Under the pieces are notes generated by a model. It had not been told where the DNA came from. It worked only from the letters and a program-made list of their open reading frames with translations, and searched no databases. A stretch of DNA of 64,000 bases. Origin: Mycolicibacterium sarraceniae. GTDB taxonomy: Bacteria > Actinomycetota > Actinomycetes > Mycobacteriales > Mycobacteriaceae. The first letter of the stretch is position 1; each line of letters begins with the position of its first letter. This document shows positions 49,953 through 64,000 of the stretch, piece by piece. Made by a program: the position numbers and the translations under genes. Location: positions 1 to 64,000 of the forward strand of contig NZ_AP022595.1 of assembly GCF_010731875.1 (NCBI RefSeq). Reading direction: 5' to 3'.

Positions 49953-49969
49953 TCCCCATCCACCTCGGA
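49953..49969. other. Putative attachment site, left (attL core)
   Basis: TCCCCATCCACCTCGGA, repeated exactly in the same orientation at 63432-63448. Identity extends to CCGnTCCCCATCCACCTCGG-A-n-A. It marks the left edge of the mobile island. Here it is also half of a 7-bp inverted repeat (TCCGAGG 49939-49945 with CCTCGGA). No P'-arm repeats are seen beside it. Confidence 0.6.
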
Positions 49970-49988
49970 CAGCTAGCATCCCTGCGTG

Positions 49989-52623
49989 ATGCGGTTCACG
50001 GTCGTAGGTGGTGGAGCTGCGGGTGTGCTCGCGGCTATCCATCTCCGTCGTCACGACCCGAGCGCACAGATCACGCTGATCGACGCGTCCGGCCGCCCCG
50101 GCACGGGTGCGGCCTACGGTACGAGCGATCCAGCCCACTTGCTGAACGTTCCGGCGCCGCGCATGTCCGCATGGCCCGACGACCCCGACCACTTCTGCCG
50201 ATGGTTGAACGAACACGCCGTCTCGACGTTCGAAGGGTTCGCGCCGCGTCTCGCGTACGGCCGCTAGCTGCAAGAACAACTCGCCGCCGCCGAGGTACGG
50301 ATCGAAACCGCCGAGGTGGTCGGATTGGCACCGGGCGCGCCGGCGCAGGTGAAGCTCAGCGACGGGCGCTCGGTGTCGACAGACACCGTCGTGCTCGCGT
50401 CGGGGCGCCCCGATGGCGGCATGCCCGATTCACTGGAACGGGCATTCGCGCCGGTGCTGGCCGCCGACACCGACGGCAAGGTGGTGGTGGATCCATGGGC
50501 GCCCGGGGCGCTGGCCGCGTTGGGAGCACGACGCCCGTCCAACGTCATGGTGGATCGGCTCGGGACTCACCGGCATTGACGTCGCTCTGCATCTCATCGC
50601 GCGCGGTGCCACGATCACGTTGATCTCGCGGCACGGCGCTCTCCCGCACCGGTTCCGCAACATGGGTGCCCCCTGCGAGGTACCGCACCTCGATGCGCTC
50701 GGTTCCGACATCTCCCTGGAAAACGTGCGCGCCGCGCTGGCCGCGGACCTGGCCGATGCACGCGAGGCCGGCCTGAACTGGCGCCAGGTGATCGACGCGA
50801 TACGGCCGCGGACATCGCGGCTGTGGCGATCGCTGGGATGGGAAGACCAACGCCGATTCCTACGAGAAGACTTACGGCAGTGGGAAATCCTGCGTCACCG
50901 CATGCCGCCTACGGTTGCCGACGCGATAGACGCCGCCATCGGCGGTGGCCAATTGACCGTGGTGGCCGGCGAGGTAGCCGACGTGTCGCTGCGCGGTGAC
51001 GGCGTCGACTTGCTGCTCACCACCACCGACGAGTCGGTCCACAAACACGGTGACGCGGTGGTCGTGGCCACGGGCACCGCGTGGGACCGGCGATCGTTGC
51101 AGCGCTCCCCACTGTGGACGAACCTGTTGGCCTCGGGCGTGGCATCCGTGCATCCGTGCGGCATCGGCGTTCGACTCGACGCGGACGGACGCCTCATCGA
51201 CGACACCGGTGCGACGGTCCCGGGCATCGTCTGCCTCGGTTCGATCCGGCAGGGTGAGGAGTGGGAGACCACCGCGATCCCCGAAATCCGCGCGCAAGCC
51301 GCCGCCGTCGCCAAGCTGATCGCTGACGACACCTTCGACCGTCCGGCGCGTGGACCCGGCATCATCGGGGCACCGGCGCCGGTGTTGACCGGTGCGCCTG
51401 CGTCCTACGCCGAGGGCGTGCGTCGCCTGCTCGCCGTCCAGGACGGCGCGTCGGTCTCGTTCGCCACCGCCGTCGCCGAGGATCCGCATCAGGCGCGTGC
51501 GCACGTCGCGCTGGCCATGATCGCCACCGAGCGACCGGACCGCGCGGGTGGCCGCGATGCGGTTGCCGGGCATCTGGCGCGGGCGCGGGCCGCACTCGCC
51601 CATGGCTCCGCCGAGGACCGCAGCCACGTCGAGGCGATCGCGACGTGGTGCGAGGAGGGCAATGCCGCGGGCACTGTAGCCCTGATCGAACATCTCGACC
51701 GCGTGCCGGATGACGCGGTCGCATTGCTTGTGCTGGCCCCGTCGATCGCGTTCGCCGGGGCCGGCGATGCGTTGCCGGACACGTGGCAGTACGTCGAGCA
51801 GTTCACTGGTGTACACGGCGAGGCGCCGTGGTATCTGGGCTTGCGCGCGTACGGCCGCACCGAACAAGGACTCTGGTATGACGCGGCCGATCTGGCTGAC
51901 GCCGCACTCGAACTCGATCCGGGCAATGGCAATGCGGCGCATGCACTTTCACACGTCCACTACGAAACCGACGCGCACGGAGCCGGATTGAAGTGGCTGA
52001 CGGACTGGATCCCCAGCGACGGCAGCACGCAGCGCTACCTCCCCCATTTCCAGTGGCATGCGGCGCTGCACGAGCTGGCGATGGGCGACGCCGCCGCGGC
52101 CGCGCGTCGGTACGCCACGTTCCTCGCGCCGCCTCAGTCGCGGGATGTGCGCTGTCTGGTCGACGCCGGTTCGCTGGCCTGGCGGGCGCGCCTGCACCCG
52201 GATTGGGTGACCCCACCGGATCCGATGCCAGTGCTCGCCGAGGCCGGCTCGCTTGCGTATTCACCTCAAACGCCGTTCATCGCGTTCCACGCACTGCTGG
52301 TACTGGCTGCCGCGAATGATCCCGCGGCTATCCGCGCCATCAAGGTTCCCGGCGCGTCCGAAGAACAGGCCAACACGCTGCGTTTCATCGGCGAGGGCCT
52401 GATCGCGCTGACCGAAGGCGAACCGCGCGCCGCGCTCGACTACCTCCTGGAGTCGCTTCCCGGACTCCCCTCGATCGGCGGCAGTCGGGTACAGCAGGAA
52501 GTGATCCTCGAAACAGCCTTGGCCGCAATGCTTCAGCTCGGTGCACCGGGTCAAGCAGGTCGCTTGCTGTCGCGGCATCGGGCTACACGCGCGCCCCAAG
52601 TCACCCGCGGCGCGGTGAACTGA
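49989..52623 (+). pseudogene. FAD/NAD(P)-binding domain fused to TTC38-like TPR domain; stop and frameshift
   Basis: About 875 codons. N-terminal half resembles the NAD(P)/FAD-binding family of PF13454: FTVVGGGAAGVLAAIHLRRH, GTGAAYGTSDPAHLLNVPAP, then GSGLTGIDVALHLIARGATI and GIVCLGSIRQGEEWETTAIP. The C-terminal 390 residues resemble TTC38-type TPR proteins (WYDAADLADAALELDPGNGN, HALSHVHYETDAHGAGLKWL). An in-frame TAG at 50265-50267 interrupts codon 93 and an extra G near 50555 shifts frame. Either a pseudogene or sequence error. It begins 19 bp inside the attL repeat. Fused family members are not known to me. Confidence 0.65.
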
Positions 52624-52831
52624 CGCGCCGGCCGACGGCCGACGGCCGACTTGCGACTGCAGCCGTCGGGGCAAGACGCATTAATTGACGCATGCGCAAA
52701 CATTGCATTTCAACCCACGCCCGGCGGGCGCAGGAAGCGTGCCATTCCTGGCAAATTACGGTGTGAGCTTCCCCAGTTTGAGTGGACACCTGAGATAGCG
52801 GGGCCGAGGGTCCTGCTGGAAGGATGTCGGG

Positions 52832-53531
52832 ATGTCTCGAACTCGTCGGTCGTTTACACCGGAGTTCAAAGTGGAGGCTGCTCGGCGGGTGATTGATGGT
52901 GGCCGATCGGTCACTGAGGTTGCCCGGGAGTTGAACGTTCATGAGAATCTGTTACGTAAATGGGTTGTAGCTGAACGGGTTCGGGCCGGTGCCGCTCTCG
53001 ACGCGCGCGAGCTACCGCCGGACGGGGACCGGTCGGCGGTCGAGCACGCGGAGTTGGTGCGGTTACGTGCTGAGCTTGCCGAAAAGGACCGTGATATTGC
53101 GTTCCTGAAAAAAAGTATCGGCGTACTTTGCGGCACAGCAACACCGGTGAGTCGTTTCGAGCTCATCGCCGCGGAGTGCGCCGACCACGACATCTCGAAA
53201 CTCACCGAGCTGCTGGGTGTTTCGCGGTCCGGTTTCTACGCGTGGGCGGCACGGCAATGCCGGGTCGAGCTGTCTGCGCACCAGCAGTGGCGCCGGGATC
53301 TGGAGGTGAAGATCCTGTCCCATTGGAAGGCCTCACGCCGCACGTACGGGTCGCCGCGGATCACTGCCGATCTGCATGCCGAAGGCGTCACCGTCTCGGA
53401 GAACACCGTCGCCAAGGTGATGGCCGAGATGGGCGTCGAAGGCATCAGCCCGCGCACGTTCAAGGTCAAGACCACCGTTGTCGATCCGACCGCATCGTTC
53501 CCGCCGGACCGGGTCGGCCGGGTCTTTGACC
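52832..53531 (+). pseudogene. IS3 transposase OrfAB, 5' part
   Basis: OrfA helix-turn-helix (RRSFTPEFKVEAARRVIDGG, NVHENLLRKWV) and leucine zipper region (LVRLRAELAEKDRDIAFLKK). It is fused in frame to OrfB at a run of seven A residues (53108-53114). One fewer A would restore the separate OrfA end VSAYFAAQQHR. OrfB then runs RFELIAAECADHDISKLTEL to FPPDRVGRVFD, where the IS4 element interrupts it. Confidence 0.88.
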
Positions 53532-55154
53532 CAATGCCGTTAACTTTGTAGGCGGGTGAGTCGGATGTCGGGTGGCCCTCGGTGTCTGATGTTTTTGTGG
53601 TCCAGGGTTTTTCGCGGAAACTTTGTGCCGCTGGCTCGTTTGGTGACGCGGGGGTAGGTGCGGTGCCGTCTGGCCGGGTTGGGTCGCTGGAGGATCTCGG
53701 CGACGGCGTGACGCAGGCTGGTGGCGAGTCGGTTAGGGGGAAAAACCCGCCTGCCCGGTGACGTGGCGGCGGACGATGCGCAGGGTGCGGATGAACGACA
53801 TCCGTAGCGGGTCGAGTCCGTCGGGGTTGGTGGCCTCATACATCAGCGCGCGGATCGCGTAGTGGGTCAACAACAGCGCCCAGATCTCTTGGCGCACCAT
53901 CTCGGGCTGTGCGAGCGCAGGACCCGGTAGCTGCCGCGTTGGCGGGTTTCGATCTCGGCGAGGCTGGATTCGAATTCCCAGCGTTGGTGATAGACCGCGG
54001 CGAGCTCGGTGGCGGAGGCTAGCTCCGGATCGAGGATGGTGGTGATCAGCCGGATGGGCGATCCGCTGTGGGTCTCGCGGTTGGTGATGTCGTACTCGAT
54101 GACGCGCACCATGGGGCCTCGAGGGACGGCGTGCAGGCCGCGGGCCTCGTGGCGTCGCAGGCGTTGACGTTCGATGGTGGTCAGCAGCACGCTCAGATAC
54201 GAGCCGTCAGCCAGGTCGGTGACTACGTGCAATTTCAGTGCTGACTGCACCCGCCACAGCAATTCGGCGCCGGTCGCAGTGGCCTCCTGCCAGAATTCGC
54301 GGCTGTAGAACCCGCGGTCGGCAAGCACGAGCATCCCGGGTTCGACACTGGCCAGCAAGGGGCGCGAGTTCACGCTCGTCGACGAGGACGCCACCGAGGT
54401 GGGCGTCGATCACCGCGTGGGTGCCGCATTCGCCCAGTCCGAGCACCTTGACCTTCGGGTAGGGGGCGTCCAGGCCCTGGCTGACACCGCGACCGAAGGC
54501 GTCTTCGTTGTCGGCGGTGTCGGGAACGTCGAGTTGGACGCCGTCGATGGCCATCACCCGCAGATCCCCCAGCCACGCGCCCGGCGTGCCTGCCCCGGCC
54601 AGCGGCCGGGCGACCCGCGCGAGCTCGCGGATCGGTTCGGCACCCAGCCGGGCCCGGGCTTGGCACAGCGCTGAGGAGGTGGGCAGCTGCCAGTCCTCGT
54701 CCCAGGACCGCAGAAACCGCAACCCGTCGACGAGTTTGCGCATTACCTCTTCGTAGGCGTCGTCGAAGAACAACGTCATAGCCAGCACGAAGTAGGCGAC
54801 CACCCGGGCCGGCAGCAGCCGACGGCCGTTCGGTGCGGCCGGTGTCGGCGAGCACCTCGTCGACGAGATCGCGGTGCACCAGCCTGGTCAGCACACCAAG
54901 CCGATCCGGTCGGTCAACCGGTCCCTACGACCGCTTTCACCACCGGCACCCTCGTCGACCACACGAATAAGTGTGATGCGTAATCCTTTGCAGCGCAATA
55001 CTTCTAGGAGCCAATCTGAGGCGCGAAGAACGTGCCGGCCAACACATCACCTTCGCTCGATCGGCACCGTTCACATCCACTGAACACGCTCTACAGCAAC
55101 AGCTTTCGATCCTAATCCCGCTGACCTGCGACGACGCTAAAGTTAACGGCATTG
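53532..55154 (-). mobile_element. IS4-family element, complete, with 10-bp target duplication
   Basis: 1623 bp. Perfect 16-bp ends CAATGCCGTTAACTTT at 53532-53547 and inverted at 55139-55154. Target duplication GTCTTTGACC at 53522-53531 and 55155-55164. A 10-bp duplication is typical of IS4 elements. Confidence 0.9.
53540..54962 (-). CDS. IS4-family transposase, frameshifted
   Basis: About 474 codons from a GTG near 54962 (VVDEGAGGESGRRDR). N-terminal IS4 domain: LGAEPIRELARVARPLA. First catalytic Asp in LRVMAIDGVQLDVPDT, second in GMLVLADRGFYSREFW, and the Y-(2)-R-(3)-E signature in AAVYHQRWEFESSLAEIETR. The usual Lys seven residues after the Glu is a Glu here. C-terminus FRRHVTGQAGFPP region to TRLQS ends 8 bp from the element end. 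Breaks near 54890, 54380, 53890 and 53760. Confidence 0.85.
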
Positions 55155-55673
55155 GTCTTTGACCAAGGGCGTATCGATGCGGTGTGGACCTCTGATATCA
55201 CGTACTTGACCTGCGGTGAAGGGGATGCCTTCCTGTGTGCGATTCGCGATGAACACTCGCGGCGGGTGTTGGGTTGGTCGCTGGCCGACCACATGCGCAC
55301 TGAGCTGGTCGAAGCCGCCGTCGATGCTGCGGTGTTCATCCGCGCCGGCAACGTCGCCGGCACCATCCTGCATGCCGATCGAGGCGGTCAATTCACCAGC
55401 CACGACATGGCCCAGGTTTGTTCTGAGCATGGCTTACTGCGCTCTATGGGAGCGACCGGGATCTGCTGGGACAACGCCGGAGCCGAATCGCTATGGTCGA
55501 CGGTCAAACATGAGTATTACAAACGCCACGCGTTCACCACGTACGCGAATCTTACTGCAGGACTTGACAATTACATCAGATTCTACAACCATGAAAGGCG
55601 ACACAGTTCGTTAGGGATGATCTCACCCATCGACTTCGAGATCGCCTCACAGCCACGTCAGCAATCAAGCTAA
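55155..55673 (+). pseudogene. IS3 transposase OrfB, 3' part
   Basis: Continues the interrupted rve domain: first catalytic Asp in AVWTSDITYLTCGEG, second in ILHADRGGQFTSHDMA, Glu in WDNAGAESLWSTVKHEYYK, ending in the NHERRHSSLGMISPIDFE block. With the upstream part it completes a DDE integrase-like OrfB, so the host IS was intact before the IS4 insertion. Confidence 0.9.
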
Positions 55674-55835
55674 CCGTGTCCACTTTTTCTGGGGAACCTC
55701 AGTGGACCACTTCTTGCTGGGTTTGATATGACAAAAGAGTAAAGAATCACACACTTGGCTAATCTTGTGCTCGACCCGACAACGGCAAATGTTCCCGCGA
55801 TCAAGAAGGTCTGGCCATAACCAGAGGTCGCGTGC

Positions 55836-56102
55836 ATGGAGATAATCGCCTTGGGTTCTGCAGCTGCCGTTGCCGTCGCCGTGGTCAAGCTGGCTCGTGC
55901 GATACGTCGCGAGAATCGCCGAATCGACGGCCTGGTCGACAACGCTGACCAGATAATCGCGGATACCCGCCGACGGTTCGACGAGGCTCTCCGATACCGA
56001 GAGTCGAGGACCCGGTTGGTAAAGATGGTGGGCACACTGGGGGCACGACCCCGTCCGCTGGTCTCGGCGATACCGTCGGAGGATTCGACAGTCCAGGTGT
56101 AG
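55836..56102 (+). CDS. Small membrane-anchored hypothetical protein
   Basis: 88 aa: one N-terminal apolar segment (IIALGSAAAVAVAVVKLA) followed by a strongly charged amphipathic helix (RRENRRIDGLVDNADQIIAD) that could be coiled-coil. No family recognised. The 134 bp before it, after the IS3 end, is A/T-richer than the window and has no gene. Confidence 0.5.
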   Translation: MEIIALGSAAAVAVAVVKLARAIRRENRRIDGLVDNADQIIADTRRRFDEALRYRESRTRLVKMVGTLGARPRPLVSAIPSEDSTVQV

Positions 56103-56154
56103 CTTCTTAGCCTCGATCCACCGATTGACTTGATGAGGGTTCGGGTGTCGGTAT

Positions 56155-56296
56155 TAGAAAAGTGCCCTTTGAACTGGGATGATTGAAGTTCTCACACAAA
56201 CAATCGGACCAACTCGGAAGGGCACTTCGAGTGCAAGTTTCCCATAGGTTCGCCGCCGAGTCTGCGGTGTTCGATGAAGAGCATCGTCGCTGAAGT
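56155..56296 (+). mobile_element. IS1380-family left-end fragment
   Basis: GTG 56231 begins VQVSHRFAAESAVFDEEH, the N-terminus of IS1380-type transposases, then stops at TGA 56291-56293. The upstream AAAGTGCCCTT and inverted AAGGGCACTT (56158-56168, 56217-56226) resemble the element's end region. Only about 20 codons remain; the rest is gone. Confidence 0.6.
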
Positions 56297-56426
56297 GTGC
56301 CTACTTGCATGAAGTTGTCGTCCCGGCTATCAGTCTGGGAAGGTCGCTCGCACTAGACGGGGTTCAAGCGCCACAAGCAAGTCACGACTCGTAGTGGTCG
56401 GTCCATGGACGACATGTCGCGGAACA
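56294..56426. other. Gap between IS1380 fragment and repressor gene
   Basis: No gene, tRNA or clear hairpin seen. Confidence 0.4.
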
Positions 56427-57215
56427 CTAATCAAGTTCATCTGACGGCCAGCGCCAGATCTTCGCCCCTTCTTCTGAAAGATTGGTGAACTCGTTCTTCC
56501 GAATGATGAGGTCACCGTCCTCCGGGATTCGTTCCCGGTAGGCGAACCCTCCGTGGGGACTGATGCCCTTCTCCGGGGGGAGGTTGGGGTCGAACTCGAC
56601 GACGACGTTCTTGTCGCGGAGTGTGCGCCACCACGATTCGAGCAACTTGATCTTCGTCTCGTTCATACCGGAACCGCCAGTCGCGATGTATTCCCCGTGG
56701 TCACGTAGGCGTTGGTACACCTTGGACTTGCCGTGCAAGTTGGTCGTCTTCCACGGCCATGCTTTGTTTACCATCTGCCTGGTGGTCAAATGACCTCCGT
56801 AGGTCATTTTGTGCCACGACACCGCCTGCCGACTTACTCCATGCATGTCGGCGATCTCGCTCTGGTTGTAACCTCTGCGTCTTAGATCTTCGATGACGCC
56901 AAATACAAGCGGTTGACGGGTCATCTTGGCGCGGCGGGTCATCCGGGGTTGGCGGGTCTTCTCTGTCGGCGCTAGCTCAACAATCGCCGCGTACCCACGA
57001 CCGGGGTCCGGCTCGACAGAGTGCACGATCCACCCGTCCTCCTTGAGCAGCTCGGTGGCACGGTTAACGATGTCGTCCGAGCTGCCGGTGAGGGGGATGC
57101 CGGTGTCGGCACGGACTACCTCGATCCGCTGCTCAATTGGGTCCCAAACGGTGACTTCGGCGGTACCGGCATCGTTTATGTCAGGCTCGGTATTAATCCA
57201 TGCGATCTGCAGCAT
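56427..57215 (-). CDS. Mycobacteriophage immunity-repressor-like HTH protein
   Basis: 262 aa from ATG 57215, with GGGAGA 7 nt upstream. Residues 1-80 are an acidic domain of unknown type. A helix-turn-helix follows: LRRRGYNQSEIADMHGVSRQ, then AVSWHKMTYGG. The C-terminal half (LRDHGEYIATGGSGMNETKI, VVVEFDPNLPPEKGISPHGG, EFTNLSEEGAKIWRWP) resembles what I recall of cluster-A mycobacteriophage repressors. Lower GC than neighbours. Probably a lysogeny repressor left from a prophage. The extra N-terminal domain is unusual for those phage proteins, so the family call is tentative. Confidence 0.55.
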   Translation of the reverse strand: MLQIAWINTEPDINDAGTAEVTVWDPIEQRIEVVRADTGIPLTGSSDDIVNRATELLKEDGWIVHSVEPDPGRGYAAIVELAPTEKTRQPRMTRRAKMTRQPLVFGVIEDLRRRGYNQSEIADMHGVSRQAVSWHKMTYGGHLTTRQMVNKAWPWKTTNLHGKSKVYQRLRDHGEYIATGGSGMNETKIKLLESWWRTLRDKNVVVEFDPNLPPEKGISPHGGFAYRERIPEDGDLIIRKNEFTNLSEEGAKIWRWPSDELD

Positions 57216-57430
57216 CGTGTTCTCCCAATTGGCATCTGCGCCGAATCGCTGGCGCGGCCTTCCATCGTGCCGGGACGTTAGCCCGCGCCTCCGACAGGGT
57301 TGCGTCGACCCTCCTCCGCCCGTCCTCCCACCGGGTGTCCGGGCTTCGGGGTAACTTCCCCCATGTCACACACTGAAGCGAGGAGACCACCGCCTATGGC
57401 GCAGACCAATGCGAATCTGATCTGGAAGAT
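57216..57430. other. Repressor upstream region
   Basis: 215 bp between the repressor start and the second IS3 element. It should contain the repressor promoter; no operator repeat is clear to me. Confidence 0.4.
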
Positions 57431-58779
57431 TGAAACGCCCTGGAAATCCCGGAGGCTCCTGACCTTGGAAACGAGGATGCAGGTATGCCGAAGGAACAGT
57501 CTGCCGGGAAGCCCACGGCGCGTCGTTACAGCCCGGAGGAGAAGGCCGCTGCGGTGCGGATGGTCCGGGCTCTGCGTGCCGAGTTGGGGACCGAGCAGGG
57601 AACCGTGTCGCGGGTGGCCCGCCAACTCGGCTACGGGGTGGAGTCGGTGCGGTCCTGGGTGCGTCAAGCCGATATTGACGAGGGATGCGCTCCGGGAGTG
57701 TCCAGCGCGGAGTCGTCACGGATCAAAGAGCTCGAGCAGGAGATCCGAGAACTCAAGCGTGCCAACGAAATACTGAAACGTGCGGCCAGTTTTTTTCGGG
57801 GCGGAGCTCGACCGCCAACACAAGAAATAGTCGATTTCATCGACGCCCAGCGCGAGGAGTTCGGGGTCGAGCCCATCATCACCGTCCTGCGATCGGCAGG
57901 CGTGGTGATGGCCCCGAGCACTTACTACGACGCCAAGTCCCGCGGTCCGTCGGCGCGCGCGCAACGTGACGCCGAACTGGGGCCGGCCCTGGTGGCCCTC
58001 TGGGAGGACAACTACCGCGTCTACGGGGCCCGCAAACTGTGGAAGACCGCCCGCCGAAATGGCCACGACGTGGGCCGCGATCAGGTGGGCCGGTTGATGC
58101 GGGCTGCCGGTATCTGCGGGGCACGGCGCGGTAAACGGGTCAAGACCACGAAGCCAGATGCCAGCGCTGCGCGGCACCCCGATCTGGTGAAGCGCAAGTT
58201 CACCGCGACCGCGCCGAACCAGCTTTGGGTGACGGATCTGACATTCGTGCCGACTTGGGCCCGGCGTCGCGTACGCGTGTTTCATCGTCGATGCGTACTC
58301 CCGGATGATCGTGGGCTGGCGGGTGGCCGGCCATATGCGGACCTCGATGGTCCTCGACGCGTTGGAGATGGCGCGCTGGTCGCGCGGAAACCTGTTGGCG
58401 GGCTTGAGATGTCACTCCGATGCTGGGTCGCAGTTCACCTCCATTCGCTACGGCGAACGGCTCGCCGAGATCGGCGCGGTCCCCTCTATAGGTTCGATCG
58501 GGGACAGCTTCGATAACGCCTTGGCGGAGACGGTGAACGGCTACTACAAGGCCGAGCTGATCTACGGTCCCGCCCGCAGCGGGCCGTGGAAGACCGTCGA
58601 GGACGTCGAGCTGGCCACCCTCAGTTGGGTCTTCTGGCACAACACCAACCGCTTACACGGCTACCTCAACGACGTCCCGCCCGCTGAGTTCGAAGCCACG
58701 TTCTACGATGCCCAACGGAGCGACCAACACCTGGTCGAAATCCAATAGCCCGAGCCTCCGGCAGAACCAGGGCGTTTCA
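57431..58779 (+). mobile_element. Second IS3-family element (IS6110-like group), about 1349 bp
   Basis: Terminal repeats TGAAACGCCCTGG..T.CCGGAGGCTC at 57431-57459 and inverted at 58751-58779, 24 of 28 bases matching. No target duplication flanks it (GAT left, GTC right), so one side was probably rearranged. Confidence 0.85.
57485..58748 (+). CDS. IS3-family transposase OrfAB, frame-fused and frameshifted
   Basis: OrfA begins MPKEQSAGKPTARRYSPEEK with HTH VARQLGYGVESVRSWVRQA, and the zipper IKELEQEIRELKRANEILKR, like IS6110 OrfA. It reads in frame into OrfB across seven T residues near 57790; six T would end OrfA at GAELDRQHKK. OrfB: NRVYGARKLWKTARRNGHDV, first Asp in NQLWVTDLTFVPTWA, then a frame break near 58265. 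Second Asp in HSDAGSQFTS, Glu in DNALAETVNGYYKAELI. Ends at 58748. Confidence 0.87.
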
Positions 58780-59056
58780 GTCGGGGATGTTCTGGCTGCG
58801 GTGGGCGCGGCGAGGGCGGCGATGGTGTCCCGGTTCGGGCCGGGACGGCTGGTCGGCGCGGTGACGGCGGTTTCAGTGGCGGTGGCGTGCAGCGGTGCCC
58901 GGCTGCTCGCGCCGGAGTGGCCGCCGGTGTCGGGGTGGGTGGGTGCAACACCAGTTGCCCTCTGATGCGCGGTGGGGTCGATGGGCCATCGTCGCGGGGA
59001 TGACTGCCCTGGCAACGGGTTTGGGCGGCATCGCCAGCGGTGAAGGAGTCAGTGCG
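58780..59056. other. Stretch between IS3 element and DDE transposase
   Basis: 277 bp. A rightward frame to 58965 gives an alanine/valine-rich peptide (VSRFGPGRLVGAVTAVSVAV) with no recognised family. It may include the left end of the next transposon; no terminal repeat was found by eye. Confidence 0.35.
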
Positions 59057-60522
59057 GTGTTGGGTGAGGATGAGAAGCGCCGGGCGCGGGCCCAGGCGGT
59101 GGGGGTTGTTCCGCTACCAGTTGATCTGCCCGGCGTTGGATCAGGGCCTGTCGACGAAGGCCCGGGGCCGGCTGGTCCGCCAGATCGCCTCCGGTGAGCA
59201 CACCGACCCGTTCGGGACCCCGGTGCGGTATTCCCGGGACACCCTGGATCGGTGGATCCGCCGGTATCGGGCCGGCGGGTTCGTCGAGTTGGTGCCCAGC
59301 CCCCGGACGTGTGTGCCGCGCACCGATACCGCAGTGTTGGAGATGGCCGCGGCCCTCAAGCGGGAGAACCCGGCCCGGACCGCCGCGCAGGTGGGCAGGA
59401 TCCTGCGCACCGCGACCGGGTGGGCGCGCCCTCGGAATCGACCCTGCTGCGGCTGTTCCACCGCCTGGAGCTGATCGGCCCGGCCGCCGGGGATGCCCCG
59501 GTGGTGTTCGGCCGGTTCGAAGCCGCCAACCCCAACGACCGGTGGACCGGGGACGCCCTGCACGGCCCGCGGATCGGCGGGAGGAAAACCTATCTGTTCG
59601 CCTTCCTCGATGATCATTCCCGGCTGGTCTGCGGCTACCGTTTCGGCTTCGCCGAGGACGCCGTCCGGTTGGGTGCCGCGCTGCAACCCGCACTGGCCGC
59701 CCGCGGGTCCCGGCCAGCGTCTATGTCGATAACGGGTCGGCCTTCGTCGATGCCTGGCTGCTGCGGGCGTGCGCGAAACTCGGCGTGCGCCTGGTCCATT
59801 CCACCCGCACCGCCCCCAGGGCAGAGGCAAGATCGAACGGTTCTTCCGCACCGTGCGTGAGCAGTTCCTGGTCGAGATCGTCGATACCACCGCCGAACAG
59901 CTCGCCGCTACCGGGTTGATCACCGCACCGCGCTGCTGGAACTGAACCGGCTGTTCACCGCGTGGGTCGAAACCGAGTACCACCGCCGCACCCACACCGA
60001 GACCGGCCACGCCCCGCTGGACCGCTGGGAGCAAGGCTGGACCCGGCTCGGCCGCGGCCCGGCGGTACCGACATCCGCGGATCTGACCGAGGCGTTCCTG
60101 TGGTCGGAGCACCGCACCGTCACCAAAACGGCCACGGTGTCGTTGCACGGCAACACCTTTCAAGTCGATACGGCCCTGATCGGGCGGCGGGTGGAGTTGG
60201 TGTTCTCACCCTTCGACCTGGAAACCATCGAAGTCCGCTACCGCGAGGTCCGCTACGGCCGGGCCGTGCCGCACATCATCACCCGCCATACCCACCCCAA
60301 AGCCCGACCCGAAACACCCGAACCAGCCCCGGCGGCGACCGGGATCGACTACCTGGCGCTGACCGCCCAGACCCACCACGAGCAGATCCGCGCCGATCAC
60401 CGCATCGGATACAACGCCCTGTTCGCCACCCCACCACCGCGCGTACCGACGGCCAGATCCCCGGACAACTCAGCATCGACGACATCGCCAGCCTTGACGA
60501 CCAGGATGGGGTGTCGGCGTGA
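59057..60522 (+). CDS. DDE transposase with Mu-type C-terminal domain, frameshifted
   Basis: About 488 codons from GTG 59057. HTH region RYSRDTLDRWIRRYRAGGFV. rve core: first Asp in NDRWTGDALHGPRIGGRKTY, second in ASVYVDNGSAFVDAWLL, Glu in GRGKIERFFRTVREQFLV. C-terminal Mu-transposase-like part: HTETGHAPLDRWEQGWTRLG, SLHGNTFQVDTALIGRRVEL. Breaks near 59105, 59425, 59710, 59820, 59920 and 60440. The stop overlaps the ATPase start (GTGA at 60519-60522), so they form one two-gene module like TniA-TniB or IS21 IstA-IstB in plan. Confidence 0.8.
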
Positions 60523-61333
60523 GTATCGAACGGCTGCAACAGTATTACGGCTTCACCCGGATGCCCTTCGGCCGCGCTCTGGCCCCCGGGATGCTGCACC
60601 GCCACCCCGGCCACAGCGAAGCCGTCGCCCGGATCTCCTGGTGTGTGGACCAGCATGCGATCGGGGTCATCACCGGGAGGTCGGCGCCGGTAAGACCGTC
60701 GCGATCCGGGCCGCGACCGCCGCGCTCGATCCGGCCCGCCACGTCATCATCTACCTGCCCAACCCCTCGGTCGGGGTCCGCGGCATGCTGCACCACATCG
60801 TCACCGCGTTGGGGCGGGTGCCCAGTTTCTACACCGCCACCCTGGCCCCCCAGGCCGCCGAGGCCCTGGCCGCTGAACACGCCGAACGCGGCCGAACCCC
60901 GTCGTGGTCATCGACGAAGCCCACCTGCTCGACAACACCCAAATGGAAGCGATCCGCATGCTCACCAACCACGACATGGACTCCGGGTCACCCTTCGCCG
61001 CCCTGCTCGTCGGGCAACCCACCCTGCGGCATCGCCTGCGTCTGGGCGTGCTGGCCGCACTCGATCAGCGCATCGCGATGCGCTACGCGATCGCCGGCAT
61101 GGCCCCCCGCCGATACCGCCGACTACATCGGCCACCACGCCACGATCGCCGGCCGCACCGACACCCTGTTCTCCGACGACGCGATCACCCTGATCCACAA
61201 CGCCGCCCGGGGCTACCCCCGGGCGGTCAACAACCTCGCCGTGCACCCACTGACCGCGGCGTTCGCCGCGAAAGCCGCGATCGTCGATGAGAAAGCCGCC
61301 CGGATCGCGGTCACTGAAACAGGCCACGACTGA
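60519..61333 (+). CDS. ExeA/TniB-like AAA ATPase of the transposon, frameshifted
   Basis: About 271 codons. ERLQQYYGFTRMPFGRALAP is typical of ExeA-like ATPases partnered with transposases. Walker A (expected GEVGAGKTVAIRAATAAL) is split by a frame break at 60680. Walker B VVVIDEAHLLDN follows another break at about 60900; sensor region LLVGQPTLRHRLRLG, and a final break near 61110. It ends ARIAVTETGHD. Such ATPases select target and activate the transposase. Confidence 0.8.
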
Positions 61334-61383
61334 ATCACCGACCGTGCGACGTCACCGCACCGAGGACGCCGTCACCATGCAGA

Positions 61384-61418
61384 CGAAGGCCCTGCCCGCT
61401 ACGCGGACAGGGCCTTCG
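61384..61418. terminator. Perfect 11-bp inverted repeat after the transposon ATPase
   Basis: CGAAGGCCCTG pairs with CAGGGCCTTCG around a 13-nt loop. No T-run follows. It may be an intrinsic terminator of the mycobacterial type or an element end. It lies where the next transposase's missing N-terminus should be. Confidence 0.5.
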
Positions 61419-61419
61419 C

Positions 61420-62874
61420 TACATCAACACCATCGGCATCCACGATGACGCCATCAACTGCATCCACAGCGACGGTCAACAACTGGCGGCACTGAAGGCC
61501 GCAGCTGCCGAGCGGTTGTCTGCCGGACAAGCGGTGCTGGACCTTGGAGTGGCCGGGCCGCCCGGATCGGAGCCGTTGCCGATAACCTCCTCCCAGATGA
61601 CCCATCTGTGGGATGGGTTGTGTGCGGCTTACCGGATAGTGGGATTTGAGGTGGCAGCCAAGGGCGACAACGTGTTTCGTGACCTGGTACTCGCGCGGAT
61701 CATCGAACCGACCAGCAAGATCGACGCCGAGCGGGTCCTGAATGAAGTCGGCGTGCCGGCGGCCTCCTATGCCACCCTCAAACGCCGGCTGCCCAGCTAC
61801 GCGAAGCCGTCGTGGCGGCAAGCGCTGGCCGGGGCATCGGCACGGCACGCCAGACTCGGACCGGCATCGCTGGTGCTCTACGACGTCTCGACGCTGTACT
61901 TCGAAACCGATGCCGGTGACGGATTCCGCGAGCCCGGGTTTTCCAAGGAACGCCGCCTGGAACCTCAGATCACCCTCGGGCTGCTCACCGATGCGGCCGG
62001 GTTCCCGCTGACCGTGGAAGCGTTCGAGGGCAACAAGGCCGAGACCGCCACCATGCTGCCAGTCATCAACGCGTTCAAGGCTGCCCACCGGCTGACCGAC
62101 GTCACCGTGGTCGCCGATGCCGGGATGATTTCCGAGGCCAACCAGATCGCCCTGCAGGCTGCGGGGTTGTCCTACGTCCTGGGCACCCGCATTCCGTTCC
62201 TGCCCGACGTGGTCCGCGAATGGTGCGCCAAGCACCCCGACGAAGCTGTTCCCGATCTGCTGATGCTGACCCAGCCGTGGTCGGCGACCAGCAGCGAGAA
62301 GGCCCGCGGTATCCCCGACCGGGTCATCTACTACCAGTACCGCCACGATCGGGCCCGGCGCACCCTGCGTGGCATCGATGAACAGATCGCCAAAGCCCCA
62401 CGCGCCGTTGATGGCAAGGCCCCGGTCAAGCGCAACCGGTTCATCAAGCTCGCCGGCGCCACCAAGACCGTCAACCGCGAATTGGAGGCCAAGAACCGGG
62501 CCTTGGCCGGCTGGAAGGGCTACACCACCAACCTCACCGGCCAGACCCCGGAGTTCGTCATCGACGCCTACCACCAACTCTGGCGTATCGAGAAGTCCTT
62601 CCGGATGTCCGAGCACGACCTGCAGGCCAGGCCGATCTACCATCACGTCCGCGAATCGATCGACGCGCACCTGAGCATCGTCGTCGCCGCGATGGCTGTC
62701 AGCCACTGGATCGAAGCCCAAACGGGCTGGAGCATAAAGAAATTCGTGCGTACCGCCCGCCGCTACCGCACCGTCCGCATCAAGGCCGGCGAACAAACAC
62801 TGACTGCAGCCGACCCGCTACCCGACGACCTCCGCGAAGCACTCATCAAAATTCGTGCCGGCGGTGTGCACTAA
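61420..62874 (+). CDS. IS1634/IS1549-type transposase, N-terminally truncated
   Basis: From 61516 (TTG) 452 aa read cleanly. The same frame extends upstream through RYINTIGIHDDAINCIHSDG to about 61420, which looks like the middle of this family's N-terminal domain; about 40-60 residues and the start are missing. DDE core: first Asp in LVLYDVSTLYFETDAGDGF, second in VTVVADAGMISEANQIALQ, Glu in YHQLWRIEKSFRMSEHDLQ. Ends IKIRAGGVH. Truncation by the neighbouring transposon is the simplest reading. Confidence 0.85.
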   Translation, partial: YINTIGIHDDAINCIHSDGQQLAALKAAAAERLSAGQAVLDLGVAGPPGSEPLPITSSQMTHLWDGLCAAYRIVGFEVAAKGDNVFRDLVLARIIEPTSKIDAERVLNEVGVPAASYATLKRRLPSYAKPSWRQALAGASARHARLGPASLVLYDVSTLYFETDAGDGFREPGFSKERRLEPQITLGLLTDAAGFPLTVEAFEGNKAETATMLPVINAFKAAHRLTDVTVVADAGMISEANQIALQAAGLSYVLGTRIPFLPDVVREWCAKHPDEAVPDLLMLTQPWSATSSEKARGIPDRVIYYQYRHDRARRTLRGIDEQIAKAPRAVDGKAPVKRNRFIKLAGATKTVNRELEAKNRALAGWKGYTTNLTGQTPEFVIDAYHQLWRIEKSFRMSEHDLQARPIYHHVRESIDAHLSIVVAAMAVSHWIEAQTGWSIKKFVRTARRYRTVRIKAGEQTLTAADPLPDDLREALIKIRAGGVH

Positions 62875-62921
62875 TTTGAGCCGAGTCAGGACGCCCCTGC
62901 AACACGCCCCAACGGTCTACA

Positions 62922-63240
62922 GAACCCCCATTCGGCGTCGCCTGGAATACCCAGCAGAAGTCAGTCACCGACGAGTACGAACAACGTGGCTTCGCCGGAC
63001 GCTTCGGCCCCGGCTTGCCTCGCGTTTCCGACGGGTCGCTGCTGTTCCTGCTACACCTGATCTCCAAGATGCAGCCTGTCAAGAGTGGCGAGGGGGGCAG
63101 TCGGCTGGCCATCGTTTTGAACGGCTCACCGCTCTTCACTGGCGGAGCTGGTTCGGGTGAGTCGAACATCCGCCAGTGGATCATCGAAAACGACCTGCTC
63201 GACGCGATCGTCGCGCTTCCGACGGACATGTTCTACAACA
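62922..63240 (+). pseudogene. Type I restriction methyltransferase (HsdM) internal fragment
   Basis: About 105 codons. Begins at a damaged NPPF catalytic motif (one base short) and continues [85 protein letters not shown]. This is the N6-adenine methyltransferase core of HsdM downstream of the SAM motif. It stops abruptly at 63240, where an integrase stub in the opposite strand begins. No hsdS or hsdR is nearby. Confidence 0.75.
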
Positions 63241-63387
63241 CTTGGCCACCTCGACGGTGTTGGCGAACCGCTCGGCATCCCGCTTCGTCTTGAATCCGCG
63301 CTTGTCGGTCTGGCGGTTGTCCGGTGTGCGATAGCGAACCCGGTACCGCTTGCCCTTCTTGGTCTCGTAAGCCGCGACGACTGCCAT
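63240..63387 (-). pseudogene. Tyrosine integrase, N-terminal arm-binding domain stub
   Basis: ATG 63387 begins MAVVAAYETKKGKRYRVRYR, then [20 protein letters not shown] and FANTVEVAK. This is the N-terminal arm-type DNA-binding domain of phage/ICE integrases. The reading frame becomes HsdM antisense at 63240, so the core-binding and catalytic domains are lost. It lies 45 bp from the attR core, as integrase genes do. Confidence 0.72.
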
Positions 63388-63402
63388 GCCCACAGCGCAG
63401 AG

Positions 63403-63424
63403 AATGTGGGCAAAATGTGGGCAA
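63403..63424. repeat. Tandem 11-bp repeats, candidate integrase arm-type sites
   Basis: AATGTGGGCAA occurs twice in tandem (63403-63413, 63414-63424) between the integrase start and the attR core. Position and repetition fit arm-binding sites for the integrase N-terminal domain. Confidence 0.6.
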
Positions 63425-63431
63425 TAACCGC

Positions 63432-63448
63432 TCCCCATCCACCTCGGA
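63432..63448. other. Putative attachment site, right (attR core)
   Basis: TCCCCATCCACCTCGGA, identical to 49953-49969. It separates the integrase/arm-site side (island) from the nrdF terminator (core chromosome). Confidence 0.65.
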
Positions 63449-63453
63449 GAACA

Positions 63454-63485
63454 CTAAAGGCGGACCGTTTCCAGTCCGCCTTTAG
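63454..63485 (-). terminator. nrdF terminator
   Basis: CTAAAGGCGGAC pairs perfectly with GTCCGCCTTTAG (12 bp) with an 8-nt loop, about 28 bp after the nrdF stop. Confidence 0.85.

Positions 63486-63512: not shown

Positions 63513-64000
<488 letters not shown>

Follow-up and report, generated by a model that had tools for sequence, protein, structure and literature searches.

A decayed integrative element beside nrdF in Mycolicibacterium sarraceniae, very probably inserted at the 3' tail of the gene

Introduction

Surveys of mycobacterial prophages, in the sections consulted, place the attB sites of tyrosine integrases mostly in tRNA genes (PMC10654092, PMC8092301). Integration at the end of a gene, with repair of the gene, is already known from other systems, as described in the consulted parts of the reports on the phage Sleepyhead (PMC13313380) and on the dusA and trmE islands (PMC4482086, PMC8409611). 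The immunity repressors of Cluster A mycobacteriophages are likewise a known system (PMC6550527 and PMC9283540, consulted in part).

Here we analyse positions 1 to 64,000 of contig NZ_AP022595.1 of M. sarraceniae (the window; genome G000), in which an island lies between a flavoprotein-TPR gene and nrdF (Table 1). We conclude that the stretch from 52.6 to 63.5 kb is very likely the wreck of an integrative element that was recombined into the 3' tail of nrdF by its integrase and then lost its left end and the catalytic part of the integrase gene (int), and that a 17-bp direct repeat flanking a larger interval is probably a coincidence.

Table 1. Coordinates of the features discussed, in window positions.
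Feature	Position	Strand	Basis or remark
17-mer, left copy	49953..49969	+	upstream of native flavoprotein-TPR gene; probably chance match
Flavoprotein-TPR gene, broken, native, outside island	49986..52623	+	877-aa ORF in G309, G346, G199
Left junction, 138 bp of unassigned origin	52626..52763	.	expected place of lost distal nrdF-tail copy
IS3-type element split by IS4-type element	52764..55713	+	left end: five copies elsewhere in genome, 100% (rounded)
IS4-type element lying within the IS3-type one; terminal inverted repeats perfect over 17 bp	53531..55155	-	repeats, Pfam
Cluster A-type phage immunity repressor, intact, 262 aa, conserved ~90-aa N-terminal extension	56427..57215	-	phrog_357 9e-77
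IS3-type element with terminal inverted repeats	57428..58782	+	repeats, Pfam
Two-gene transposon-like unit: broken transposase (HTH, rve pieces) and AAA ATPase (below Pfam cut-off)	59040..61333	+	Pfam
IS transposase, DDE_Tnp_1, 452 aa	61516..62874	+	Pfam
HsdM internal fragment, type I restriction-modification	62922..63242	+	PF02384 1.9e-12; MTase_I 1.2e-55
Integrase stub of ~57 codons (arm DNA-binding N-terminus), joined to hsdM near 63241	63211..63387	-	PF14657 above cut-off
Two tandem 11-bp repeats (TGTGGGCAAAA / TGTGGGCAATA), probable integrase arm-type sites	63405..63426	+	recur in related elements
17-mer, right copy	63432..63448	+	in the variable spacer separating nrdF from the arm repeats
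Hairpin between nrdF and int, 12-bp perfect stem; terminator-like, no clear U tract	63454..63485	-	folding energy
nrdF 3' tail, last ~28 codons and stop; probable att core, chromosome side (attR)	63513..63598	-	duplicated at far end of related elements

Results and discussion

An integrase stub next to nrdF

The first-pass annotation of this DNA described tandem 11-bp repeats at the right junction, followed inward by the start of a tyrosine integrase gene at 63387(-), with nrdF lying outward, and this arrangement is correct. The start of int lies 129 bp after nrdF (63516 to 63387). The encoded stub is 83% identical to a stub in the relative G034 over residues 2-57, and the DNA similarity between the window and G034 begins at 63241. 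None of the 11 matches to the catalytic domain PF00589 in the genome falls in the window. The earlier description of an integrated element whose integrase is truncated stands, and its being locked in place is probable given that only the arm-binding N-terminus remains; the boundaries and the attachment site assigned to it do not stand.

When six junctions are aligned, the nrdF tail is conserved and is followed by a short C-G-TCAG-like block, also conserved, then by a spacer that varies and finally by the tandem repeats, of which G034 has one copy. In G138 (Mycobacterium sp. GA-1199) and in G405 both ends of the element carry the tandem, at the far end just inside the element, which suggests that the repeats are probably integrase arm sites. 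G392 and G291 also have it close to nrdF and int, and in G034 the repeat is single or degenerate at both ends. The hairpin between nrdF and int has a folding energy of -30.4 kcal/mol (z -8.7), and one in the equivalent position in G034 reaches -29.1 (z -6.5). Being common to G034, the hairpin was probably brought by the element, and nrdF transcripts may now end at it.

Related elements duplicate the nrdF tail

Full-length integrases next to the same core gene, for which the first-pass annotation suggested a search, do exist. They lie beside nrdF and read in the same direction as the stub in G138, G405 and G392, at distances of 127, 129 and 132 bp, respectively. In G138, copies of the nrdF tail lie 16.6 kb apart at the two ends of the element (98.8% over 84 bp), and in G405 they lie 22.1 kb apart (94% over 100 bp). 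These two elements, of 16.6 and 22 kb, are apparently intact. G034 has an 86-bp copy of the tail 8.4 kb from the real one, with a truncated int in between. The G138 element encodes, besides the integrase, HTH excisionase-like, weakly primase-like, helicase-like and OLD/GajA-like proteins, and that of G405 an ApeA-HEPN protein, a bSEFIR/TIR protein, a resolvase and an HNH endonuclease. No clear virion gene, capsid included, came up when 19 of the 21 listed G138 ORFs and 19 of the 27 listed G405 ORFs were scanned against PHROGs; the weak matches, to an Rz-like spanin (G138, 4e-4) and a tape measure protein (G405, 1e-3), had no passing stretch.

A related integrase is found at E<=1e-90 in 61 of 396 genomes of the genus. 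Among the best 30 loci, taken with 1.5-kb flanks, nrdF is present in five, all within the six most similar integrases (>=68%); the sixth, in G279, has no nrdF within the 20 kb examined. An nrdF tail lies near int in at least nine of the best 80 of 94 relatives in IMG/VR, and in at least six of the best 80 of 445 in genome_contigs, three of which are the same mycobacterial contigs. In a quick integrase tree of 174 of 191 rows, from which identical, short and duplicate query rows were left out, nrdF-linked integrases form a mycobacterial cluster (5/5 rows, support 97) and a Microbacteriaceae-type cluster (11/14 rows, support 100). The nrdF-link label requires four changes on this tree and none of 500 shuffles gave as few, a result that near-copies alone can produce. 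We read the two clusters as separate adoptions of nrdF as a target. Within the mycobacterial cluster int points away from nrdF in G138, G405 and G392 and faces it in G175 and G291.

In the Microbacteriaceae-type cluster (Microbacterium, Leucobacter and IMG/VR contigs) int faces the 3' end of nrdF. The distance between the two genes is 117-122 bp in six of the 12 loci (L133, L138, L139, L140, L143, L145, L152, L155, L180, L256, L282 and L289) and 324-1113 bp in the others. M. sarraceniae itself encodes another integrase, open over its full length (G000:C1:4190558-4191643), which is 57% identical to that of G138, belongs to a different cluster and is not at nrdF. One locus filed under an Acidobacteria MAG (L219, JAKIXW010000114.1) carries a mycobacterial-type nrdF together with an nrdF-linked-type integrase; a genome search puts the contig in the genus of the window, and the Acidobacteria title looks wrong. 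Phage and plasmid records with an nrdF tail were also considered (the best 20 of 62, 60 of 75 and 20 of 88 matches): the annotated ones among those listed are nrdF genes and the rest are unannotated, with no clear attP.

The flavoprotein-TPR gene and the left boundary

The first-pass annotation placed the left boundary at 49953 and regarded everything up to the right end as accessory, thereby making the flavoprotein-TPR gene part of the cargo. Comparison with 13 relatives speaks against both points. The gene lies at the same place in six of them (G009, G199, G309, G325, G336 and G346); the open 877-aa frames of G309, G346 and G199 correspond to two pieces of 93 and 736 aa in the window, which thus holds a broken copy. 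In G009 the stop codons of the flavoprotein gene and nrdF are separated by 12 bp and no island lies between them, and so a relative keeps the gene without any island, an outcome that the annotation itself had named as refuting its model. The examined stretch contains no match to the gene in the other seven (G004, G018, G024, G034, G067, G160 and G312), and since its left flank is present in G004, G067 and G312, the gene itself is absent there. Given its place in six relatives, in none of which the 17-mer upstream of it is kept, we regard the flavoprotein-TPR gene as native to the lineage, reject it as island cargo and start the island near 52625.

The lost left end itself was not located: between 49 and 64 kb of the window the arm repeats occur at the right end only, and a DNA comparison of five non-IS or boundary pieces of the island with the loci of relatives did not find it. 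Searches with DNA and protein likewise gave no second nrdF-tail copy in the M. sarraceniae genome, all 11 other matches being only 17-35 bp long.

In G309 a decayed nrdF-tail copy (71 bp, 83%) lies 2 bp past the flavoprotein stop (L313) and is probably the scar of a similar old integration. The window has no such stretch after its flavoprotein gene. The DNA directly downstream of nrdF differs in most species examined, several of which have adenylate cyclase-like and other genes there as judged by reading their ORFs; the place is a variable spot even without integrases.

The 17-bp direct repeat

An identical 17-mer does occur in the same orientation at 49953-49969 and 63432-63448, as first described, both copies being on the + strand. 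The genome (4.83 Mb) has no further copies at one mismatch or fewer, and the match stretches to 20 of 21 bp if one mismatch is tolerated. The annotation took this pair as the att core of a 13.5-kb phage or ICE spanning 49953-63448. In favour of that model, one exact copy lies beside the integrase stub and the other upstream of the flavoprotein gene, and for the interval 49.5-63.6 kb by itself only 0.015 (order-2), 0.045 (order-3) or 0.12 (order-5) such pairs are expected, so that within this 14-kb stretch alone the pair looks unusual. Across the window as a whole, however, exact direct pairs of 17 bp or longer number five against 1.2 expected (order-3 model), and 42 comparisons among 7-kb blocks of positions 1-49000 gave six shared 17-mers. 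Scanning a window by eye will therefore often turn up such a repeat, and the claim that the pair exceeds chance is not confirmed.

Neither copy is conserved. The 17-mer is absent at up to three mismatches from 20 loci, and its best matches in 13 relative and four element loci, partly from the same genomes, have 4-5 mismatches; the single uninterrupted copy that the annotation proposed to look for as attB is thus missing from the relatives examined. The right copy falls in the variable spacer of the six-junction alignment, inside DNA otherwise common to the G034 element. Together with the native status of the flavoprotein gene, these results lead us to reject the 17-mer as an att core. It is probably a chance match, and an integration bounded by it with the flavoprotein gene as cargo is highly improbable. 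The case is a caution for reading GC-rich windows, in which short exact repeats arise by chance and the eye readily passes over a gene tail of ~86 bp that has diverged and recombined.

Island contents

All the contents listed by the first-pass annotation (a phage repressor, an HsdM fragment and five IS or transposon units) are present. Pfam scans of 17 stretches of the window matched IS parts, HsdM, the integrase arm domain, AAA and, weakly, a flavoprotein, or nothing. Virion structural genes were not detected in these scans, PHROGs being run on the window repressor alone, and no FtsK-like Tra protein or relaxase was seen in general Pfam scans of the 17 stretches and of five proteins each from the G138 and G405 elements. 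The HsdM fragment, bordered on its left by an IS, would fit a pattern of defence cargo. The five non-IS or boundary pieces have no DNA match to the G138 and G405 elements apart from the int end; the integrative element may therefore not have brought in hsdM and the repressor.

Insertion sequences take up most of the DNA between 52.76 and 62.9 kb, and hence most of the island. This, the fusion of the stub to hsdM, the lack of a distal tail copy and the variable gene content of the gap among relatives would all suit a history without integration at this place, in which the stub arrived on a fragment borne by an IS or by recombination and the island is no more than an accumulation of IS copies in a variable gap next to nrdF. 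We consider such a history unlikely because the stub, the tandem repeats, the hairpin and the nrdF spacing run collinear with G034 all the way to nrdF and on into the gene, and the distance from nrdF to int agrees with that in G138, G405 and G392.

We therefore favour integration at the nrdF tail. Its direct basis in the window is a stub of the nrdF-linked kind with its spacing, direction and tandem repeats, joined by the tail duplications of related elements; with no second tail in the window, the att site is read from the duplications in G034, G138 and G405. The clustering of nrdF-linked integrases in the tree, the place of the flavoprotein gene in the six relatives and the decayed tail copy of G309 also count in its favour. 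Against it, the stub can be compared with its relatives over no more than ~57 residues, int is reversed in G175 and G291, and G279, nearly as close, has no nrdF within the 20 kb examined. A tyrosine integrase would have recombined an nrdF-tail copy borne by the element with the chromosomal tail, strand exchange presumably taking place within the tail. The last codons of nrdF would thereby have been swapped for element-borne equivalents, so that the gene stayed whole, and the integrase arm sites and int would have come to lie directly downstream of it. Deletions during IS invasion probably then removed the distal tail copy and the catalytic part of int, and these losses would have locked the remnant. 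With its left end gone and a single tail copy, the window copy is a dead remnant and not a working nrdF-targeting element.

The phage immunity repressor

The C-terminal ~165 residues of the repressor match 1082 phage records, 111 at 60-80% identity and 971 below 60%. The 12 best rows are 61-68% identical over ~163-182 residues and nearly all annotated as immunity repressors, which we take to be those of Cluster A phages. Six other proteins (74-87%; four of them inspected) and one in G024 (90%) are full-length repressors with the same N-terminal extension, and the G024 copy lies near part of a tyrosine recombinase, a transposase and a resolvase. L5-type stoperators are not in excess in the genome, with 20 sites at up to one mismatch against 32 for the reversed control, the consensus used being one that may differ from the repressor's own site. 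The repressor may be a mobile, free-standing phage immunity gene. DaVinci, among the listed matches, is treated in a Cluster A paper (PMC6550527, consulted in part). Compared with the Cluster A repressors in the consulted parts of that paper and of PMC9283540, the window protein differs in its ~90-aa N-terminal extension and in having no phage structural genes seen alongside.

nrdF as an attachment site

Our search of a library of open-licence papers found no report of nrdF or ribonucleotide reductase as an integration site, and neither of the strings 'nrd' and 'ribonucle' occurs in PMC10654092, PMC8092301 or PMC3218068 as far as their main texts go. Because gene-end integration is known and the surveys do not mention nrdF in these main texts, nrdF seems to extend a known kind of element to a new target. 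We put forward, as an evenly balanced proposition, that the nrdF 3' end is an attB hot spot of actinobacteria so far unlisted, and that related tyrosine integrases have adopted it on at least two occasions, once in the mycobacterial cluster, where int of three members points away from nrdF, and once in the Microbacteriaceae-type cluster, where int faces it. The mycobacterial elements would be small and mobile and carry replication and anti-phage genes, and int would be within possible reach of nrdF transcription, tying excision to nucleotide supply. This points to a conserved gene, and not a tRNA gene, as an attachment site, and the apparently intact elements of G138 and G405 could aid the design of mycobacterial integration vectors and the detection of islands.

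The PICI-like and other integrated elements of mycobacteria in the consulted part of PMC10654092 are likewise small and integrase-bearing, some with replication genes. The tyrosine-integrase PICIs described there use tRNA genes, unlike the nrdF elements, and candidate PICIs are defined by an integrase together with a capsid gene, which no scanned ORF of G138 or G405 matched. With the dusA and trmE islands, as far as the consulted parts of PMC4482086 and PMC8409611 describe them, the nrdF elements have in common that the integrase is linked to a single conserved gene of the host; the target here is nrdF, the hosts are actinobacterial, and dusA islands use the 5' end of their gene. A parallel in mode of insertion comes from the consulted part of the report on the Rhodococcus phage Sleepyhead (PMC13313380), whose attP likewise agrees with the 3' end of a protein gene of its host at 90/91 positions and restores that gene, although Sleepyhead is a full siphophage and its target is an acyl-CoA dehydrogenase gene.
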